A DNA stretch of 64,000 nucleotides, taken from contig NZ_JAHYSG010000021.1 in the NCBI RefSeq assembly GCF_022095675.1, forward strand, positions 1-64,000. The letters are read 5' to 3'. Shown here in pieces: positions 7,968 to 17,160 of the stretch. This stretch comes from Dactylosporangium sp. AC04546. GTDB lineage: Bacteria > Actinomycetota > Actinomycetes > Mycobacteriales > Micromonosporaceae. Both the position numbers and the translations under genes were made by a program. Each line of letters starts with the position of its first letter. Positions within the stretch are counted from its first letter, which is position 1. Under the pieces are notes generated by a model. The model was not told the origin of the DNA and searched no databases. It was given only the letters and a program-made list of their open reading frames with translations.

Positions 7968-8023
7968 AGCTAGCCCTCGGGGGAGTGCGGCCCGACCCGT
8001 TGTTCTTCCTTGCCGGCGGGTGA

Positions 8024-8043
8024 GTTGACCTCGTGCGGTCAAC
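8024..8043. promoter_or_regulatory. Inverted repeat upstream of the DedA gene
   Basis: GTTGACC and GGTCAAC form perfect 7-base arms around 6 bases, in the recN-dedA intergenic region. It lies about 32 bases upstream of the predicted dedA -10 box. It could be an operator, or a weak recN terminator since no T run follows. I favour an operator. Confidence 0.4.
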
Positions 8044-8074
8044 ATCGCGCCGCTTGGTGTTCGTCTCGTCGCCG

Positions 8075-8080
8075 TAGGTT
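8075..8080 (+). promoter_or_regulatory. Predicted -10 box of a leaderless DedA-gene promoter
   Basis: TAGGTT (TANNNT) ends 7 bases before the GTG at 8088, the same spacing as at recN. A TTGGTG at 8054-8059 could be a -35 with a short 15-base spacer. Confidence 0.5.
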
Positions 8081-8087
8081 GCGCGCT

Positions 8088-8789
8088 GTGGTGGACACCG
8101 TCGCGGCCTCGCCCTGGATCATCGTGATCGTGTTCGTGGTGGCCGGGCTCGACGCCATCGTGCCGCTGTCGCCCAGCGAGTCCACCCTGATCGCCGTGTC
8201 CGTCGCCTCCGCGGAGACCGGGCACCCCGCCATCGCGCTGGTGATCGCGGCGGCCGCCAGCGGGGCGTTTGTCGGCGACGTCGTGTCGTACCGGATCGGG
8301 GTGCGGGCCGGGGCCGGGGTGCTGCGGCGGCTGCAAGGCAAGACGCGGGGGATGGCCGCCTACTCCTGGGCCAGCCGCACCCTCGCGAGCCGGGGCGGGC
8401 AGGTGCTCGTGTTCGCGCGCTATCTGCCCGGTGGCCGGTCGGCCTCGGCGCTGGCCGCCGGGGTGGTCGGCTACCCGGCGCTGCGCTTCCAGGCCTGGAC
8501 GGCCGTCGGTGTGAGTGTGTGGGCGACGATGGCGGGGCTCATCGGGTACGCCTGCGGGATCTTCTTCCAGGGGCGGCCGTGGAAGGCGCTGCTGCTCGCG
8601 TACGCGGGTGCCGCCCTCCTCCTCGGGTTCGCCGAGCTCGTCCGGCGGTGGTCGCCGCCGCCACCGGTCGAAGCCGAGGTCGCCGCCGAGCCCGAGCCGG
8701 AGTCCGAGCCCAAGGCCGAGCCCAAGGCCGAGCCCAAGGCCGAGCCCAAGGCCGAGGTTGCCGGCGAGGCTGAGGCCGAGCGGTCCTAG
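8088..8789 (+). CDS. DedA-family membrane protein with EPKA-repeat tail
   Basis: A 233-residue SNARE-associated/VTT-type membrane protein. Hydrophobic segments include WIIVIVFVVAGLDAIVPLSP and the later ALLLAYAGAALLLGF; the family core shows as GDVVSYRIG and FARYLPGGRSASALAAG. DedA proteins act in membrane homeostasis and flipping of polyprenyl or phospholipid carriers; the substrate is unknown here. The C-terminus is an acidic/Lys tail with four exact 12-base repeats (cccaaggccgag, 8709-8756) coding PKAE. The start is GTG 8088 (or 8091), read from a leaderless promoter. Confidence 0.85.
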   Translation: MVDTVAASPWIIVIVFVVAGLDAIVPLSPSESTLIAVSVASAETGHPAIALVIAAAASGAFVGDVVSYRIGVRAGAGVLRRLQGKTRGMAAYSWASRTLASRGGQVLVFARYLPGGRSASALAAGVVGYPALRFQAWTAVGVSVWATMAGLIGYACGIFFQGRPWKALLLAYAGAALLLGFAELVRRWSPPPPVEAEVAAEPEPESEPKAEPKAEPKAEPKAEVAGEAEAERS

Positions 8790-9111: not shown

Positions 9112-9192
9112 GAGCGCCGAACAGGGCGTTCTACCTGGTCGTGGACATGTCGCACGCGGCTTTCCCGAACGGTCCATGCCAGGATGGATGCG

Positions 9193-10365
9193 ATGCGACT
9201 ACCAACTCTACGCCGCACCCGGCCCGCCGAGCCGGGTGTCATCGGTGGCGTCGTGCGGCTGGATCGGCGGACGAAACGCCTGGTGGGTCGCCTGCGCCCG
9301 GGGGACATCGCGGTCATCGACCATGTCGACCTGGACCGGGTCGCGGCCGACTCGCTCGTGGCGGCCGGGGTGGCGGCGGTGCTCAACGCGAAGCCGTCGG
9401 TCTCCGGCCGCTATCCCAACCTGGGGCCCGAAGGGCTGATCAAGGCCGGCATCCCGCTCGTCGACGACCTGGGCGAGGAGCTGTTCGACCGCCTGCGCGA
9501 GGGCGACGTGGTCCGCATCGAGGGTGACACCGTCTACGCCGGCGAGGAGGCCGTCGCCAAGGGCGTGCGGCAGGACGCCGACACCGTCGCCGAGGCGATG
9601 GCCGACGCCCGCGAGGGGCTGTCGGTGCAGCTCGAGGCGTTCGCCGCGAACACCATGGAGTACCTCAAGCAGGAGCGCGCCCTGCTGCTCGACGGCGTCG
9701 GCGTGCCCGAGGTGCAGACCGAGATCGCCGGGCGGCACTGCCTCATCGTCGTGCGCGGCTACGACTACAAGGCCGACATCGACGTGCTGCGCCCCTACAT
9801 CCGGGAGTACAAGCCGGTCCTCATCGGCGTCGACGGCGGCGCCGACGCGCTGGTCGAGGCCGGGTACACGCCCGACATGATCATCGGCGACATGGACTCG
9901 GTGAGCGACGACGTGTTGCGCTGCGGCGCGGAGATCGTCGTGCACGCGTACCCCGACGGGCGGGCGCCCGGCCTGGCCCGCGTGCAGCGGCTCGGCGTCG
10001 AGGCGATCACCTTCCCGGCCGCCGCGACCAGCGAGGACATCGCGATGCTGCTGGCCGACGAGAAGGGGGCGTCGCTCCTGGTGGCGGTCGGCACCCACAA
10101 CACCCTCATCGAGTTCCTCGACAAGGGCCGGGGTGGCATGGCCTCGACCTTCCTGACGCGGTTGAAGCTCGGTGGCAAACTGGTCGACGCCAAGGGTGTA
10201 TCCCGGCTGTACCGGCAGAGTCTCTCCGGCTCGTCGCTGGTCCTGCTGCTCGCGTCCGCGATCGCCGCGATGGCCGCCGCCCTGGCCGTCACCACGATCG
10301 GGCGGGCGTACCTCAGCGTCATCGCCGAGTGGTGGGACAACCTGATCTTCACGCTGTTCTCGTAG
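9193..10365 (+). CDS. steA: SteA-like cell-envelope protein (thiamine pyrophosphokinase-like fold)
   Basis: A 390-residue protein matching Rv1697/SteA by position and features. A TPPK-like core shows in PVLIGVDGGADALVEAG, then MIIGDMDSVSDD; the C-terminus has one membrane segment (LVLLLASAIAAMAAALAV). In Corynebacterium SteA and SteB form a complex needed for normal cell-wall assembly and division, and the TPPK fold is thought to have lost the vitamin function. I chose ATG 9193; an in-frame ATG at 9184 is only 9 bases upstream and sits too close to AGGA. steB follows 17 bases later. Confidence 0.85.
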   Translation: MRLPTLRRTRPAEPGVIGGVVRLDRRTKRLVGRLRPGDIAVIDHVDLDRVAADSLVAAGVAAVLNAKPSVSGRYPNLGPEGLIKAGIPLVDDLGEELFDRLREGDVVRIEGDTVYAGEEAVAKGVRQDADTVAEAMADAREGLSVQLEAFAANTMEYLKQERALLLDGVGVPEVQTEIAGRHCLIVVRGYDYKADIDVLRPYIREYKPVLIGVDGGADALVEAGYTPDMIIGDMDSVSDDVLRCGAEIVVHAYPDGRAPGLARVQRLGVEAITFPAAATSEDIAMLLADEKGASLLVAVGTHNTLIEFLDKGRGGMASTFLTRLKLGGKLVDAKGVSRLYRQSLSGSSLVLLLASAIAAMAAALAVTTIGRAYLSVIAEWWDNLIFTLFS

Positions 10366-10382: not shown

Positions 10383-11327
10383 GTGATCAACTTCCGGTAC
10401 CACGTGGTGTCGCTGGCCGCCGTCTTCCTGGCGCTCGCCATTGGCCTCGTCGTGGGGACCGCGGCGGCCAACGGGCCGCTCGCCGAGAACCTCAACGACC
10501 AGGTCAACAAGATCACGGACGAGAAGCAGCAGCTCCGCGACGACCTGGAGCAGTCGCGGGCCGAGCTGAAGAAGAACGCCGACTTCGCGAACGAGGTCGC
10601 CCCGATGCTGCTCAACGGCAAGCTGACCAACCGCAACGTGCTCCTGGTCAAGTTCGAGGGCAGCGACGACGACGTCGACGCGGCGACCGAGGGCATCGCC
10701 GACACGCTCGACACGGCCGGCGCCAAGCTCACCGGCACGGTCACGATCAAGGAGAAGTTCACCGCCGCCACCAGCAGCGAGCTGCTGCTCGACCTGGCCG
10801 ACTCGTCGGCGCCGCCGGCCGTGAGCGGGGCCCTGCCCGCCGAGTCCAACGGGGTCGACACCTCGGCCGCGCTGCTCGCCGCGGTGCTCGTCGGCAAGTC
10901 CGGCGCGGCGCAGGTCGAGGGCACGCGCACGGTGCTCAGCAGCTACGAGAAGAGCGGCGTGATCGGCCTCGAGGGCGACTTCAAGGTCCCCGCCGAGGCG
11001 GTGATCGTGGTCGCCGGGGCGCCCGCCACCGGCAAGGACGCCAAGGAGCGCAACGCCGCCGCGCTGACCATCGCCAGCCGCTTCGACCTGGCCGGGAAGG
11101 TCGTGGTCGCCGGGCTCTCGGCCAACGGCCTGGTGTCGGCGGTCCGCGGTGACGCCTCGATCGCCAAGTCGGTGTCCACGGTCGACAACGCGGTGACGGC
11201 GTACGGGCAGGTCGCCGCGGTCATGGCCCTGGTCGAACGGCTGGGCGGCAAGACCGGCCACTACGGCATCGGCGACGGTGCGACCAGCCTCCTGCCGAAG
11301 ACGGTGAGCGCGGCCAATGGTTCGTAA
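10383..11327 (+). CDS. steB: SteB/MctB-like membrane protein
   Basis: This 314-residue protein has one N-terminal membrane segment (VVSLAAVFLALAIGLVVG), a coiled coil (residues about 38-75: VNKITDEKQQLRDDLEQSR), then an extracellular domain. It matches Rv1698 (MctB, first described as a copper transport protein) and corynebacterial SteB. The GTG at 10383 gives the conserved VINFRYHVVSLAAVF start. It lies 17 bases after steA and overlaps the next gene by 11 bases. Confidence 0.87.
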   Translation: MINFRYHVVSLAAVFLALAIGLVVGTAAANGPLAENLNDQVNKITDEKQQLRDDLEQSRAELKKNADFANEVAPMLLNGKLTNRNVLLVKFEGSDDDVDAATEGIADTLDTAGAKLTGTVTIKEKFTAATSSELLLDLADSSAPPAVSGALPAESNGVDTSAALLAAVLVGKSGAAQVEGTRTVLSSYEKSGVIGLEGDFKVPAEAVIVVAGAPATGKDAKERNAAALTIASRFDLAGKVVVAGLSANGLVSAVRGDASIAKSVSTVDNAVTAYGQVAAVMALVERLGGKTGHYGIGDGATSLLPKTVSAANGS

Positions 11328-12387
11328 GCTGCTTCGCCTGCTGGCCGGACCGGTCGGCGGCACCGTCGCCCGCGCCTCCGTGCGCGCCCTGGCCGGCAAC
11401 CCGGCGCTCGATCGCACCAACTTCCGCGGCCGCACGGTCTCCCTGGCCGGCGGCCCGGCCCTGGCGCTCGGCGCCACCGCGGGCGCCGTCGTGGGGGCCG
11501 CGACGAGCAAGACCCCGATGGGACGGGTGGGGGCCGCGACGAGCAGGACCTCGACGGGACGGGTGGTGGCCGCGACCGCGGTGGCGGGCCTCGGGTCCGG
11601 CGCCGTCGGGCTCTACGACGACCTCGTCGGCGGGCGGCCCGAACACGCCGCCAAGGGCTTCCGCGGCCACGTCGGCGCGCTGCGCGAGGGCCGGGTCACC
11701 AGCGGCCTGGTCAAGATCGCCGGGGTCGGCGCGGCCGGCCTGGTGGCGGCCGCGCTGCTGCCCCGCAAGCGGGCCGTCGACGTGCTGCTCGGCGCCGGGG
11801 TCATCGCCGGCGCCGCGAACCTGTTCAACCTGCTCGACCTGCGCCCGGGCCGGGCCATCAAGGCCGGGTTCCTCGCTGGCGCGCCCCTCGCGGGCAGCGG
11901 CATCGCGGCCGGGACGCTCGGCGCGGCCGGCGCGCTGCTGCCGGCCGACCTCGACGAGGAGATCATGCTCGGCGACGCCGGAGCCAACGCGCTCGGCGCG
12001 CTGCTCGGCACCGCGTACACCGCCCGCACCGGCACCCTCGGCCGCGCCGCCGCCCTCGCCGGGATCGTCGCGCTGACCGCGGCGAGCGAGAAGGTCAGCT
12101 TCACCAAGGTCATCGAGCGCAACGCCCTGCTGCACCGCATCGACCAGTGGGGCCGCCGCCCGGCCGGCAACCCGCGGGCAGCCGGTGAGGAGCGCGCCGA
12201 GGAGGCCCTCTGGGAGGTGGCGGCCGACCGCGAGGCCCGGGAGGCGCTGGCGGGCATGGACGACCGCGAGGCGCGGGAAGCCCTGTGGGGCGACCCGGCG
12301 CAGCAGGCCCTGTGGGAGATCGAGACAGACCCGGATGACGAAGACCGGGACGGGCGGCGCAGGCCGCGGCCGTATCCGCGCAGGTGA
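11317..12387 (+). CDS. Degenerate MraY/WecA-like (GT4 phosphosugar transferase) membrane protein
   Basis: A 356-residue polytopic protein related to polyprenyl-phosphate GlcNAc/MurNAc-pentapeptide phosphotransferases. Recognisable motifs are GLYDDLVG (DD at 101-102), ANLFNLLD (168-174) and MLGDAGANALGALLG (GD at 219-220). The usual NxxNxxDGxDGL motif reads DLRPGRAIK, so the second catalytic Asp pair is missing and the enzyme may be altered or inactive. Residues 59-70 and 71-82 are a tandem 12-residue duplication (36-base DNA repeat at 11491-11562). The C-terminal 70 residues are charged with repeated REAREAL and EALWE units. It overlaps steB by 11 and the flippase gene by 4 bases. Confidence 0.75.
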   Translation: MVRKLLRLLAGPVGGTVARASVRALAGNPALDRTNFRGRTVSLAGGPALALGATAGAVVGAATSKTPMGRVGAATSRTSTGRVVAATAVAGLGSGAVGLYDDLVGGRPEHAAKGFRGHVGALREGRVTSGLVKIAGVGAAGLVAAALLPRKRAVDVLLGAGVIAGAANLFNLLDLRPGRAIKAGFLAGAPLAGSGIAAGTLGAAGALLPADLDEEIMLGDAGANALGALLGTAYTARTGTLGRAAALAGIVALTAASEKVSFTKVIERNALLHRIDQWGRRPAGNPRAAGEERAEEALWEVAADREAREALAGMDDREAREALWGDPAQQALWEIETDPDDEDRDGRRRPRPYPRR

Positions 12388-13955
12388 CCGCAAAACGGCT
12401 GTTCGGCGCGGCGGTCCTCGTCGCGAGTCTCACCGTTCTGAGCCGAATTGCCGGATTTGCCCGCATTCTTGTCTTCAACTGGTCCGTCGGCCCCACCTAC
12501 CTCGGCAACGCCTACCAGGCCGCCAACACGATCCCCAACATCATCTTCGAGCTCGTGGCCGGCGGCGCCCTCGCCAGCCTCGTCGTGCCCCTGCTCGCCG
12601 GCCCGGCGGCGCGGGAGGACCGCGCGACCGTCGGGCGCACGGTGTCGGCCCTGCTCACCTGGGTCGTCCTGCTGCTCACCCCGATCGCCCTGGTCACCGC
12701 CCTCGCCGCCCGGCCGCTCGTCGGCCTGCTCACCGACGGCCAGCCGCCGGAGGTCGTCGACGCCGGCACGGACATGCTGCGGGTCTTCGCGCCCCAGCTG
12801 CCGCTGTACGGGGTGGGCATCGTCCTGACGGGGGCGCTCCAGACGTACCGCCGCTTCGCCTGGCCCGTCATCGCCCCCCTGCTGTCGAGCCTGACGGTGA
12901 TGGCCGTGTACGTCGCCTTCGGCCTGCTCGCCGGGCGCGGCGCGGACCTCGGGCAGGTCAGCGGCGGGCACCTGCTGCTGCTGTCGGGCGGCACCACGCT
13001 CGCCGTCGCGGTGCTCTCGCTCTGCCTGGTGTTCCCGATGAGGCGCCTCGGGCTGCGGGTCCGGCCGTCCACCCGGCTGCCCGTCGAAACGGTGCGCACC
13101 CTGCGCCCGCTCGCCGTCGCCGGGATCGTCACCGTCGGCACCCAGCAGCTCGTCCTGGGCCTGGCCATCCGCCTGGCCAGCTACGCGGGGGAGGGGGCGA
13201 TCGTCGTCTACAGCCTGGCCCAGACGATGTTCCTGCTGCCCTGGGCGGTGTTCGCCGTGCCGGTGGCGACCACGACCTACCCGGCGCTCGCCGAGCACGG
13301 CGCGCACGGCGACCGGGAGGGGTTCGCGCGGGTCCTCGCACCGGCCGTGCGCAGCGTCGTGCTGCTCACCACCCTCGGCGCCGCCGGGCTCATCGTGCTG
13401 GCGCGGCCGATCGCGGTACTGCTGGCGGCCGCGTCCTCCCAGCCGCCCGCCATCGGGCCGCTCGCCGGGGCGATCGCCTGGTTCGCGCCCGGCCTGCTCG
13501 GCTACGGGCTGTTCGCCCTGCTGTCCCGGGCCCTGTACGCCGGGGCCAACGCCTACCCGGCCGCGGTCGCGACCGCGCTCGGCTGGGCCGCGGTGGCCGG
13601 CGTCGCGCTGCTGCTCGCGGTCACCCTGCCGGTCGCCGACCGGGTGCCGGCGCTCGCCGCGGCGAACTCGGCCGGCATGGTCGTGCTCGGCGCGGCACTG
13701 CTGTTCGCCATCCTCCGGAAGGCGGGTGCGCCGGCACTCGCCGGCGTCGCCCGCACCACCGCCGCAGCCGTCGCGTCGGGAGCCGTCGCGGTCGCCGCCG
13801 GGCTCACCATCCGCGGCGCGATCAGCACCCCCGGTGCGGGCGGGGCCGTTGCGCAGGGCATGCTGTGCGGAGTCGTGGTGGCGGTGGTCTTCCTCGCCGG
13901 GGTGGCGGTCACCGACCGCCGGGCCCTGCAGCGACTCGTCAAGAGAAAGGGCTGA
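12384..13955 (+). CDS. MurJ/MviN-type lipid-linked oligosaccharide flippase
   Basis: A 523-residue MOP-superfamily protein with about 14 membrane segments. Typical features are SRIAGFARILVFNWSVGPT and NAYQAANTIPNIIFELVAGGAL near the N-terminus, a MurJ signature. It should flip lipid II or a related undecaprenyl-linked glycan outward. Its position between an MraY-like gene and a glycosyltransferase, in a GTGA overlap with the former, argues for a role tied to that cluster. Actinomycetes often have several MurJ paralogues, so I do not claim it is the essential lipid II flippase. Confidence 0.85.
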   Translation: MTAKRLFGAAVLVASLTVLSRIAGFARILVFNWSVGPTYLGNAYQAANTIPNIIFELVAGGALASLVVPLLAGPAAREDRATVGRTVSALLTWVVLLLTPIALVTALAARPLVGLLTDGQPPEVVDAGTDMLRVFAPQLPLYGVGIVLTGALQTYRRFAWPVIAPLLSSLTVMAVYVAFGLLAGRGADLGQVSGGHLLLLSGGTTLAVAVLSLCLVFPMRRLGLRVRPSTRLPVETVRTLRPLAVAGIVTVGTQQLVLGLAIRLASYAGEGAIVVYSLAQTMFLLPWAVFAVPVATTTYPALAEHGAHGDREGFARVLAPAVRSVVLLTTLGAAGLIVLARPIAVLLAAASSQPPAIGPLAGAIAWFAPGLLGYGLFALLSRALYAGANAYPAAVATALGWAAVAGVALLLAVTLPVADRVPALAAANSAGMVVLGAALLFAILRKAGAPALAGVARTTAAAVASGAVAVAAGLTIRGAISTPGAGGAVAQGMLCGVVVAVVFLAGVAVTDRRALQRLVKRKG

Positions 13956-13957
13956 TC

Positions 13958-15046
13958 GTGCGCATCGCGTTGGTGCTGGCCACGAGCACGGGCGGCACCG
14001 GGCGGCACGTCGGCATGCTGGTCGACGGCCTGGTGGCGCACGGCGCGGAGGTCAGCGTCCACGGGCCGGCGGCGACCGGCGCGCAGTTCCGCTTCGCCCA
14101 GCGTGGCGCCAGGTTCGTGCCGGTCGAGATCCCGGCCAGCCCCCAGCCGGGTGACGTCCTGGCCGTGCGGGCGCTGCGCCGCGAGCTCAGGGGCGTCGAC
14201 GTCATCCACGCGCACAGCCTGCGGGCCGGCCTGGTCGCCGCGCTCGCCCGCCCGGCCGGCGTCCCGCTGGTGGTCACCTGGCACAACCTCGTGCTGGCCA
14301 AGGGCCTGCGGGCCCGGCTGTACCACCCGCTGGAGCGCCGGGTCGCCCGCGCCGCCGACGTGACGCTCGGCGTCTCCACCGACCTCGTCGAGCGGGCCCG
14401 CGAGCTCGGCGGCAAGGACGTCCGCCTGGCCAGGGTGCCCGCGTCGGTGCTGCCGCCGCCCGCCCGCGGCCGGGAGGCCGTCCGCGAGGAGCTGGGCGTC
14501 GAGCCCGGCCAGCCGCTCGTGTTCGCCGCCGGCCGGCTGCACCCGCAGAAGGGCTTCGAGACGCTCGTCGCCGCGGCCGCCCGCTGGCGCCACCGCGACC
14601 CGCCGCCCTACGTGGCGATCGCCGGCAGCGGCCCGTCGTACATGCCGCTCGCCCAGCGCATCTCCGTCGAGCGCGCGCCGGTCCACCTCCTCGGCCACCG
14701 CGACGACGTGCCCGACTTGCTGGCCGCGGCCGACCTGGTCGTGGCGACCAGCGTGTGGGAGGGCCAGCCCCTGTTCGTCCAGGAGACGATGGCGGCAGGT
14801 GTACCGCTGGTGTCGACCGCCGTCGGCGGCGTCCCCGAGCTGGTCGGCTCCGCCGCCCGCCTGGTGGCGGCGCACGACGTCGACGGGATCGCGGACGCGG
14901 TCGAGGAGCTGCTCGACGACCCGGGCGCCCGCGAGGAGCTGGGCCGCAAGGGCCTCGCCCAGGCCGCCACCTGGCCGACCGCCGAGGACGCCGTGGAGCA
15001 GGTCGAGGCGGTGTACGCGCAGCTGCGCGCCCGCGGGGAGGGCTGA
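13958..15046 (+). CDS. GT4-family glycosyltransferase
   Basis: A 362-residue GT-B enzyme. The N-terminal domain has TGGTGRHVGMLVDGL (acceptor side) and VIHAHSLRAGLVAALA; the C-terminal domain has the GT4 donor-binding run VFAAGRLHPQKGFETLV, PDLLAAADLVVATSVWEGQP and the E-x7-E type motif FVQETMAAGVPLVSTAVGG. It probably adds sugars on the cytoplasmic side to a lipid-linked acceptor; donor and acceptor are unknown. The GTG start is 2 bases after the flippase stop, with GAAAGG upstream. Confidence 0.9.
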   Translation: MRIALVLATSTGGTGRHVGMLVDGLVAHGAEVSVHGPAATGAQFRFAQRGARFVPVEIPASPQPGDVLAVRALRRELRGVDVIHAHSLRAGLVAALARPAGVPLVVTWHNLVLAKGLRARLYHPLERRVARAADVTLGVSTDLVERARELGGKDVRLARVPASVLPPPARGREAVREELGVEPGQPLVFAAGRLHPQKGFETLVAAAARWRHRDPPPYVAIAGSGPSYMPLAQRISVERAPVHLLGHRDDVPDLLAAADLVVATSVWEGQPLFVQETMAAGVPLVSTAVGGVPELVGSAARLVAAHDVDGIADAVEELLDDPGAREELGRKGLAQAATWPTAEDAVEQVEAVYAQLRARGEG

Positions 15047-17160
15047 TGCGGCACCGGCTGCATCGCTTCACCCCGGCCCTGCTCGCGCTCCTCGTCGGAC
15101 TGCTCGGCATCGTCGCCCTCATCCCGCGCCCGGCCGCCGAGCCGGTCGCCCCGGCCGCCGACTACGTGATCGTCGTCGGGGTCGCCGGGCTGCGCTGGGA
15201 CGACGTGAACCCCGACGACACCCCGACCATGTGGCAGCTCGCCCAGGCCGGCTCGATCGGCGCGCTGTCGGTGCGCTCGGCCCGGCGGGTCACCTGCGCC
15301 GGCGACGGCTGGCTGACTCTCGGCGCCGGCAACTTCGCGATCTACACGCCCGGCGCGGTGACCCCGGTCTGCCCGCCGCTGAGCGCCGTCATCGAGCCCG
15401 ACGCGCAGGGCAAGCCCGGCGCGTCGCTGCCCGACCAGGCCGACGTCGTCGCGCGCAACCGCAACCTGCACTGGGGCGCCCGGCCGGGTGCGCTGGCCGA
15501 GGGCGTGCGCTGCACCACCGCGATCGGCCCCGGCGCCGCGATCGCCGCCGCCCGGCCCTACGGGCGGGTCGACCGCTACTCGGAGAGCGTCGAGGAGAGC
15601 CTGCTGTCCGCCTGCGCGCTCACCCTGGTCGACGCCGGGCAGATCGAGGGCGCCGACGCCGCGGCCCGGGCCGGCGACGCCCGGCGGGCCGACGCGGTGC
15701 TGGCGAGCGTCATGGCCGGCCGGCCGGAGCGGGCCCTCGTCGTCCTGGCCGGCCTGTCCGACCTCGACGCCACCGGCCGGCTCCATGTGGCGATCGCCCA
15801 GGGGCCCGGCTACACCGGCGGCTGGCTCACCTCGCCGTCGACGTCCCGCCCCGGCTACGTGCAGGTCGTCGACCTGGCCCCGAGCGCCCTCGCGGCGCTG
15901 GACCGGCCGATCCCCGGCAAGCTGTTCGCCGGTGGGGCCGCGTCGATGACCGGCGGGCGGCCGGCCGACCTGGCCGCGGCCGTCGACGATCTCGCCGACG
16001 CCGACCGGGAGGCGAGCATCCAGCGGCGGGTCGGCTCGAACTTCTTCACCGGCCTCGTGGTCGCCGAGCTGCTGATCTTCCTGGCCGCGGTACCGCTGCT
16101 GCACCGGGCGAGAAGGCCCGGCGGCCCGCAGTCGTACACCCCGACGCCGGCGTGGCTGCGGCGGGCCGCCGAGGTGCTGCTGCTCGCCGCCTCCCTGGCC
16201 GTCCCGGCCGCGCTCGTCGCCGACCTGCTGCCCTGGTGGCGGTGGTCGTCGCCGGGGCTCATGTTCGGCGGCGTGACGCTCGGGGTGCTCGCCGTGGCCA
16301 CCTTCGTCCTCGCGTACATCACCGCCCGCAGCCGGGCCATCGCGCCGCTCGGCGGGGTGGCCACGCTCGCCGCCCTGGCCGTCGCGTTCGACGTGCTCAC
16401 CGGCTCCCGGCTGCAGCTCAACGGGGTGGCCGGCTACTCGGCACTGGTCGGCGGGCGGTACGCGGGCGTCGGCGTCATCGGCCTCGGCCTGCTCGTCACC
16501 GGCGTGCTGCTCGGCGGAGCGGCCCTCGCCCAGCGCTTCGAGCGGCGCTGGCGGCCGTTCGTGATCGCCGTCGTCGGCGCGGTCGGCATGGTCGTCATCG
16601 GCAGCCCGTACCTCGGCGCCGACGCGTCCGGCGCGGTCGCCCTCACCGCCGGGGTCTGCATCGCCGCCGCGATGGCGGTCGGTGGCTGGCTGACCATCAC
16701 CCGGCTGCTCTGGGCGTTCGGCGCGGCGCTCGTCGTCACCGCCGGGTTCGCGGTGCTCGACCTGTTCCGCCCGGAGGAGCAGCGCAGCAGCGTCGGCCGG
16801 CTGCTCGTGCGGACGCTGGACGGCACGGCCGGGTTCATCGCCCGGCGCATCGGCGAGGCGAACGTCGTCACCACGGTCACCAGCCCGCTGACCGTGCTGG
16901 TGCTCGGCTCCCTGCTGTACGCCACCTTCGTCCTCCTGCGCGACTGGGGCGGGCTGCGGCGGCTGCTGGGCGTCTTCCCGCCCGTCCGGGGGGCGCTGGC
17001 GGGGCTCGTCGTGGCGTCGCTGCTCGCCGGTCTGGTCGAGGGCGTCTCGCTCAACGTCCTCGGCGCGGCCCTCGCCACAGCGCTACCGCTGGTCGTGCTC
17101 GCGTGCCTGCGCGTGTTGGACCACGCCGACGACAAGTCCAGTGAGTGGTCCGAAGCGTAG
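15046..17160 (+). CDS. Polytopic membrane protein with extracytoplasmic alkaline-phosphatase-like domain
   Basis: A 704-residue protein. A signal-anchor (ALLALLVGLLGIVALI) is followed by an extracytoplasmic region (about 35-325) that begins VIVVGVAGLRWDDV and contains TCAGDGWLTLGAGN, resembling alkaline phosphatase/sulfatase-fold proteins. From about residue 330 there are roughly ten membrane segments. The ATG overlaps the glycosyltransferase stop by one base. The context suggests transfer or trimming of a phosphorylated sugar polymer at the outer membrane face; that is inference. I do not know a characterised member. Confidence 0.7.
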   Translation: MRHRLHRFTPALLALLVGLLGIVALIPRPAAEPVAPAADYVIVVGVAGLRWDDVNPDDTPTMWQLAQAGSIGALSVRSARRVTCAGDGWLTLGAGNFAIYTPGAVTPVCPPLSAVIEPDAQGKPGASLPDQADVVARNRNLHWGARPGALAEGVRCTTAIGPGAAIAAARPYGRVDRYSESVEESLLSACALTLVDAGQIEGADAAARAGDARRADAVLASVMAGRPERALVVLAGLSDLDATGRLHVAIAQGPGYTGGWLTSPSTSRPGYVQVVDLAPSALAALDRPIPGKLFAGGAASMTGGRPADLAAAVDDLADADREASIQRRVGSNFFTGLVVAELLIFLAAVPLLHRARRPGGPQSYTPTPAWLRRAAEVLLLAASLAVPAALVADLLPWWRWSSPGLMFGGVTLGVLAVATFVLAYITARSRAIAPLGGVATLAALAVAFDVLTGSRLQLNGVAGYSALVGGRYAGVGVIGLGLLVTGVLLGGAALAQRFERRWRPFVIAVVGAVGMVVIGSPYLGADASGAVALTAGVCIAAAMAVGGWLTITRLLWAFGAALVVTAGFAVLDLFRPEEQRSSVGRLLVRTLDGTAGFIARRIGEANVVTTVTSPLTVLVLGSLLYATFVLLRDWGGLRRLLGVFPPVRGALAGLVVASLLAGLVEGVSLNVLGAALATALPLVVLACLRVLDHADDKSSEWSEA

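Follow-up and report, generated by a model that had tools for sequence, protein, structure and literature searches.

What are the genes of a cell-separation regulator doing next to genes of the glycan-assembly kind? The question is raised by a window of 64,000 nucleotides (the whole stretch of DNA that was analysed) from Dactylosporangium sp. AC04546, in which steA and steB are followed by genes for an MraY-like transferase (MraYL), a MurJ-family flippase (MurJ2), a GT4-family glycosyltransferase and a polytopic protein with an outer alkaline-phosphatase-fold domain (APL), and then by pyrG. According to passages of PMC12977500, SteA is a dimer anchored by a transmembrane (TM) segment and complexed with SteB, which binds and activates RipA; SteA of Corynebacterium glutamicum is stabilised by UDP/GDP, the identification of its ligand calls for further work, and SteAB adjoins spo0A in Clostridia. 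Passages of PMC6705760 likewise describe the complex of C. glutamicum SteA with SteB together with its septal localisation, and parts of PMC12338722 report that SteA (TapA) of Mycobacterium tuberculosis and M. smegmatis acts without SteB. The answer that is somewhat favoured here is that the locus is a lipid-linked glycan assembly operon with a core of SteA, MraYL and a small glycosyltransferase, in which SteA would be the nucleotide-using part. It draws on the observed gene order, linkage, folds and motifs and on the alteration of the SteA site in genomes without MraYL. Each part is of a known kind; their combination and the tie to SteA are undescribed as far as the open-licence PMC papers listed reach: among them no description of a linkage between SteAB and MraYL was found, a word count of PMC12977500 (supplements outside the count) gave no use of 'glycosyltransferase' or 'MurJ', and the matched passages of PMC8195603 and PMC12419801 hold nothing on SteAB.

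MraYL and SteA occur together and lie together. A draw of 396 Actinomycetota genomes, searched at E 1e-12 for MraYL and E 1e-30 for SteA, contained MraYL in 137, SteA in 154 and both in 130. SteA positions are given for 125 of these 130; the two genes share a contig in 113 and lie on different contigs in 12, and the same-contig pairs are at most 15 kb apart in 112 of the 113; in 111, MraYL lies downstream of SteA in the same orientation. A second survey took 199 genomes from the phylum to which Geosporobacter (L038, G396) belongs, broadly Bacillota, and found MraYL in 131, SteA in 132 and both in 130; in all 128 same-contig pairs MraYL is downstream of SteA on the same strand, at no more than 2,356 bases, and two pairs are on different contigs. 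Fisher values for both surveys are descriptive only, since related genomes are not independent. The 24 Actinomycetota genomes with SteA alone include every genome drawn from family f2 (inferred to be Mycobacteriaceae): all 14 have SteA and none has an MraYL match. MraYL, MurJ2, GT4 and APL were also not found beside steA in four fetched f2 loci (L004-L007). The first-pass annotation had regarded the block as extra in the window, a view that these counts overturn; the gene-neighbourhood survey which it had suggested as a check, run in both phyla, favours linkage. The block has the look of an ancestral feature that Mycobacteriaceae-like genomes have lost, and a recent insertion is rejected on the neighbourhood and co-occurrence data from Actinomycetota and Bacillota. 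In one genome (G374; L120, L121) steA-steB lies 1.8 Mb from a MurJ2-GT2::APL-MraYL block, which still sits between recN and pyrG.

Such linkage could also result from inertia of a conserved tlyA-nadK-recN-...-xerD region that keeps its neighbours in place, with SteAB and the glycan genes doing unrelated jobs, and most fetched loci do sit in that region. Yet of 42 loci with sufficient flanking sequence (a count that keeps duplicates), 7 have none of tlyA, nadK, recN, pyrG, nudix and xerD in view and still keep the block together; these include Brevibacillus and Paenibacillus, and in two of the seven a rough motif screen flagged a Spo0A-like frame. Because the block holds together with none of these genes in view, mere regional synteny is disfavoured. 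Among the 199 Bacillota, moreover, MraYL and SteA are both absent from 66 genomes and only one of them is absent from 3, and genomes without MraYL have an altered SteA site, so that this explanation is considered quite improbable.

The SteA site gives the most telling of the results. SteA of the window has an intact site resembling those of thiamin pyrophosphokinase (TPK) and MptE (6-hydroxymethylpterin pyrophosphokinase), consisting of DGGAD, GDMDS, H254, TSED, H305, K314 and R316. The stretch aligns with MptE (8sd5, E 2e-5), and the TPK_catalytic domain PF04263 (cut-off 30.7) is matched by SteA of the window (35.7 bits), of Geosporobacter (32.8 bits) and of L142 (33.9 bits), with 13.7 bits for the f2 SteA of L006. 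SteA differs from both enzymes in its TM anchor and SteA-like C-terminal domain, and remains below the thiamin pyrophosphokinase equivalog TIGR01378 (42.2 of 76.4 bits). In an alignment of 139 SteA sequences, 134 counted as module-positive and 5 as module-negative, 61 columns are conserved in at least 93% of the positives, and 29 of the 61 are kept in all five negatives. Twenty columns within or next to the TPK/MptE-like motifs were chosen from this alignment and followed through the order of the window (150 genomes; SteA in 141, MraYL in 61, both in 60, SteA alone in 81). Among the first 60 SteA fetched, all 20 from MraYL-bearing genomes match every one of the 20 columns and all 40 from genomes without MraYL differ, at 1 to 15 columns. 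In total, all 22 further SteA examined from MraYL-bearing genomes have the site intact, and of the 81 from genomes without MraYL it is altered in 79, four of the 79 (L004-L007) having helped to choose the columns. The first 40 negatives keep 490 of 800 cells in the site columns versus 1406 of 1634 in the remaining 41 conserved columns; S239 of GDxDS survives in one of these 40 and in six of the 81 overall (two being the genomes with an intact site), with one gap. The 134 older positives show no mismatch in 104 cases, one in 23, two in four, three in two, and 17 in one broken frame. Families f76, f79 and f83 contain both module states, and the module label switches five times on a SteA tree built without the site columns. 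Both solved SteA chains, 9hmy and 9hmz, are altered at DGG and GDxDS.

On a rival view SteA is a sensor and no enzyme, reading UDP or GDP from the glycan enzymes or from wall synthesis and gating SteB and a hydrolase. UDP and GDP, which stabilise C. glutamicum SteA, are by-products of glycosyl transfer, and the anchored SteA dimer is in complex with SteB (passages of PMC12977500). However, the conserved set holds a pyrophosphokinase-type GDxDS and further charged residues, and the UDP/GDP tests used SteA from module-less lineages; a pure sensor is regarded as rather unlikely. Within the favoured reading, that of a glycan operon with SteA as its nucleotide-using part, we infer a primary place for SteA in the glycan pathway, whether as enzyme or as nucleotide sensor, and a division role in Mycobacteriales that is shared or derived. 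A stronger proposal, advanced tentatively and with a good chance of failing, is that SteA was ancestrally an active nucleotide-using enzyme of an undescribed SteA-GT-MraYL pathway (GT, glycosyltransferase) present in Actinomycetota and Bacillota, and probably also in Armatimonadota, with mycobacterial SteAB as the remainder after several losses. If true, this would recast a mycobacterial division regulator as the relic of a wider envelope-glycan pathway. The ligand question raised in passages of PMC12977500 would gain a substrate class, and organisms in which to test it, because the neighbours would use UDP-sugars and an intact site is nearly confined to genomes that have them.

Gene content separates a core from additions in the fetched MraYL-bearing loci, which are a chosen and not a random set. 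Forty-eight Bacillota loci include steA-steB-GT2-MraYL (36), steA-GT2-MraYL (9) and steA-steB-MraYL (2), so some Bacillota have steA and MraYL with no steB detected; Pfam matches confirm the identity of GT2 and SteB in Geosporobacter. Among 88 Actinomycetota loci MurJ2 is present in 50, GT4 in 42, APL in 36 and GT2 in 30. Five loci titled Armatimonadota consist of one steA-steB-GT2-MraYL (probably L031; its MraYL clusters with those of Bacillota), one steB-GT2-MraYL that has steA close by (L067), two steA-steB-MraYL and one MraYL alone. MurJ-like and AP-like (alkaline-phosphatase-like) genes are labelled only in Actinomycetota loci and in one locus with the title Acidobacteria, the MraYL of which is placed among those of Actinomycetota. 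On this basis SteA, MraYL and a small glycosyltransferase (GT2 or GT4) make up the core; most loci also have SteB, and MurJ2 and APL appear to have been added in particular lineages. GT2 and MraYL share one open frame in L030, and GT2 and APL do so in L020, L096, L100 and L121. The metagenome titles of L024, L089, L025 and L031 (Bifidobacterium breve, Acidobacteria, Armatimonadetes) conflict with their MraYL tree placement, and these are likely mislabelled or mixed bins.

The small Bacillota core, with one glycosyltransferase and no polymerase in view, would also suit a lipid-linked sugar used to glycosylate proteins such as SteB, RipA-like hydrolases or surface proteins, and not a wall polymer. 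Genes of the PMT_2 family (PF13231), possibly further glycosyltransferases, lie within or beside the cluster at L105:5960-7213 and L035:10783-12306, the two loci in which they were looked for. Against this, the MurJ-type flippase and polytopic outer-face protein of many Actinomycetota suit a larger lipid-linked product, and protein glycosylation is held to be improbable.

The initiator-type enzyme, glycosyltransferase and flippase named in the first-pass annotation all belong to real families. The structure model of MraYL has the MraY/DPAGT1 fold of the PF00953 superfamily, to which the sugar-1-phosphate transferases MraY, WecA, TagO and DPAGT1 belong. Aligned to the organism's own MraY it has the catalytic Asp motifs DD, NxxD and GD, with D101, D102, D174 and D220 present in 85 of 85 sequences. 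The window protein itself matches no Pfam or NCBIfam model. At the MraYL place in ten genomes, five proteins pass the PF00953 gathering cut-off (Geosporobacter, Thermoanaerobacterium, Mahella and two Armatimonadota), three fall below it and two have no match; in a separate scan the L030 fusion passes (28.3 bits) and L142 fails (24.1 bits), and Thermoanaerobacterium (L039) has no match in the protein scan, at odds with its pass in the ten-genome scan. MraYL forms a subfamily of its own: where MraY has NLTDGLDG it has NLLDLRPGRxxK, the HHH motif of MraY has no conserved counterpart (the alignment being weak in that part), and its clade is separate from MraY and TagO with support of 100/100. These motif differences and the separate clade set it apart from MraY proper. 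A PDB sequence search with the MraYL profile returned unrelated chains only. Residues of about 281-356 in the window protein form an extra charged tail with repeated EALWE/REAREAL-like stretches that most aligned relatives are without, and a small internal near-duplication around residues 62-83 is mostly missing in them.

MurJ2 falls within the PF03023 superfamily but under the TIGR01695 MurJ equivalog cut-off (184.3 vs 235.55 bits). The same assembly has four near-full-length MurJ-family genes (292, 291, 265 and 185 bits) and a short match of 40 bits; with three better-scoring copies in the genome, MurJ2 is rejected as the main lipid II flippase.

APL has no Pfam or NCBIfam match. Its outer domain (residues of about 37-304) has the alkaline-phosphatase fold of that superfamily; its C-terminal TM domain (about 309-697) has the conserved residues D449, R471, D526, D572, R575, R585, R601 and N606 in loops predicted to lie outside, and APL is modelled with about twelve TM helices. 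The idea in the first-pass annotation of an outer-face phospho-enzyme did not hold: no His is conserved in at least 60% of 43 homologues, and the usual metal-ligand columns, including those aligned to the iPGM DHG motif and to the IDG motif, vary, these columns having been placed by sequence alignment instead of superposition. Metal-dependent phosphatase or phosphotransferase chemistry in the outer domain thus appears unlikely from sequence, and an ordinary metallophosphatase is rejected for lack of a conserved His. YejM/PbgA and LtaS, both among the Foldseek matches listed for APL, also carry an AP-fold outer domain on a membrane protein; APL differs in having about twelve TM helices, more than is known for either, and no conserved His.

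From these features we infer each chemical step, the product and the coupling to division in module-bearing bacteria. MraYL would transfer sugar-1-phosphate from a UDP-sugar to polyprenyl phosphate at the inner face, GT4 (GT2 in Bacillota and many Actinomycetota) would add at least one sugar, and MurJ2 would flip the lipid-linked product. APL may then act on or present the product outside by means of its TM-domain loops, its phosphatase-like domain serving for binding or docking. SteA, membrane-anchored and cytoplasmic with a pyrophosphokinase-type site, would be catalytic or would sense a nucleotide donor or by-product, and could couple the pathway through SteB to septal wall hydrolysis. The product may be a wall or surface polymer, as first supposed. 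Wzx/Wzy-type assembly, as of teichuronic acid and enterobacterial common antigen, similarly combines an initiating transferase, glycosyltransferase, MOP-family flippase and a polytopic protein with conserved residues in predicted outside loops, whereas the module adds the AP-fold domain of APL and the tie to SteA. No recognisable Wzy was seen; the APL TM domain was not searched separately and the fold matches listed are taken up by the AP domain, so that the absence of a match for the TM domain there carries no weight. The SteAB-RipA system of Corynebacterium and Mycobacterium shares homologous (NF040608, PF11382) and adjacent SteA and SteB; it differs in that fetched f2 loci are without MraYL, MurJ2, GT4 and APL beside steA and have an altered SteA site.

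Several observations weigh against this scheme. SteAB in C. glutamicum and SteA in mycobacteria serve cell separation in module-less lineages, and therefore coupling to the module is not obligatory. Two of the 81 genomes without an MraYL match, G687 and G705, have an intact SteA site; they are 82% and 81% complete, their contigs stop within 1 kb downstream of steA, and the lack of MraYL may be no more than an assembly gap. Part of the data served to select the SteA columns, and there are few losses: the three well-supported independent pairs are all concordant, giving a sign test p of 0.25 (tree and test did not include G687 and G705). Five of the 396 Actinomycetota genomes, all in the Streptomycetaceae-like family f4 (Streptomycetaceae by inference) and among seven with MraYL alone, have an MraYL match without SteA, with GT4 beside MraYL in both of those fetched. 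As regards APL, T/S91, D53, D216 and D276 are kept in 37-42 of the 43 homologues, so a residual site is possible, and the window protein lacks an NDSG motif present in most homologues.

The NDSG motif lies near the APL C-terminus and is missing in the window and L003 and kept in the other six aligned rows. In the two f4 loci (L112, L113) MraYL-GT4 is kept between recN and pyrG with SteA and SteB absent, and their MraYL has changes at N168, K182 and N224. The coordinates first proposed for the four genes after steA-steB were confirmed (Table 1).

Table 1. Genes of the steA-steB locus and their positions in the window
Feature	Position	Strand	Matches and remarks
SteA	9184..10365	+	NF040608 (NCBIfam equivalog, passed) 510.9 bits; PF04263; PF12555; start codon picked by eye
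SteB (MctB family)	10383..11327	+	PF11382 273.4 bits; start codon picked by eye
MraYL, MraY-like polyprenyl-phosphate sugar-1-phosphate transferase, own subfamily	11317..12387	+	
MurJ2, MOP/MurJ-family flippase	12384..13955	+	PF03023 184.1 bits; TIGR01695 184.3 bits
GT4-family glycosyltransferase	13958..15046	+	PF13579, PF13692, PF00534 above cut-off
APL, polytopic, outer alkaline-phosphatase-fold domain and C-terminal TM domain	15046..17160	+	

The window APL is 94% identical to that of D. sucinum, and the genome is Dactylosporangium-like; the listed contamination of the assembly is 11.5%. A second, unlinked SteB-like gene lies on another contig of the assembly (C8, L002:9500-10504; PF11382 236.5 bits), where no SteA is labelled and the gene that follows resembles one for a secreted glycoside hydrolase. 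Just upstream of SteA, positions 8010-8789 of the window encode a DedA/VTT-domain protein with a KAEPKAEPKAE-type repeat tail.
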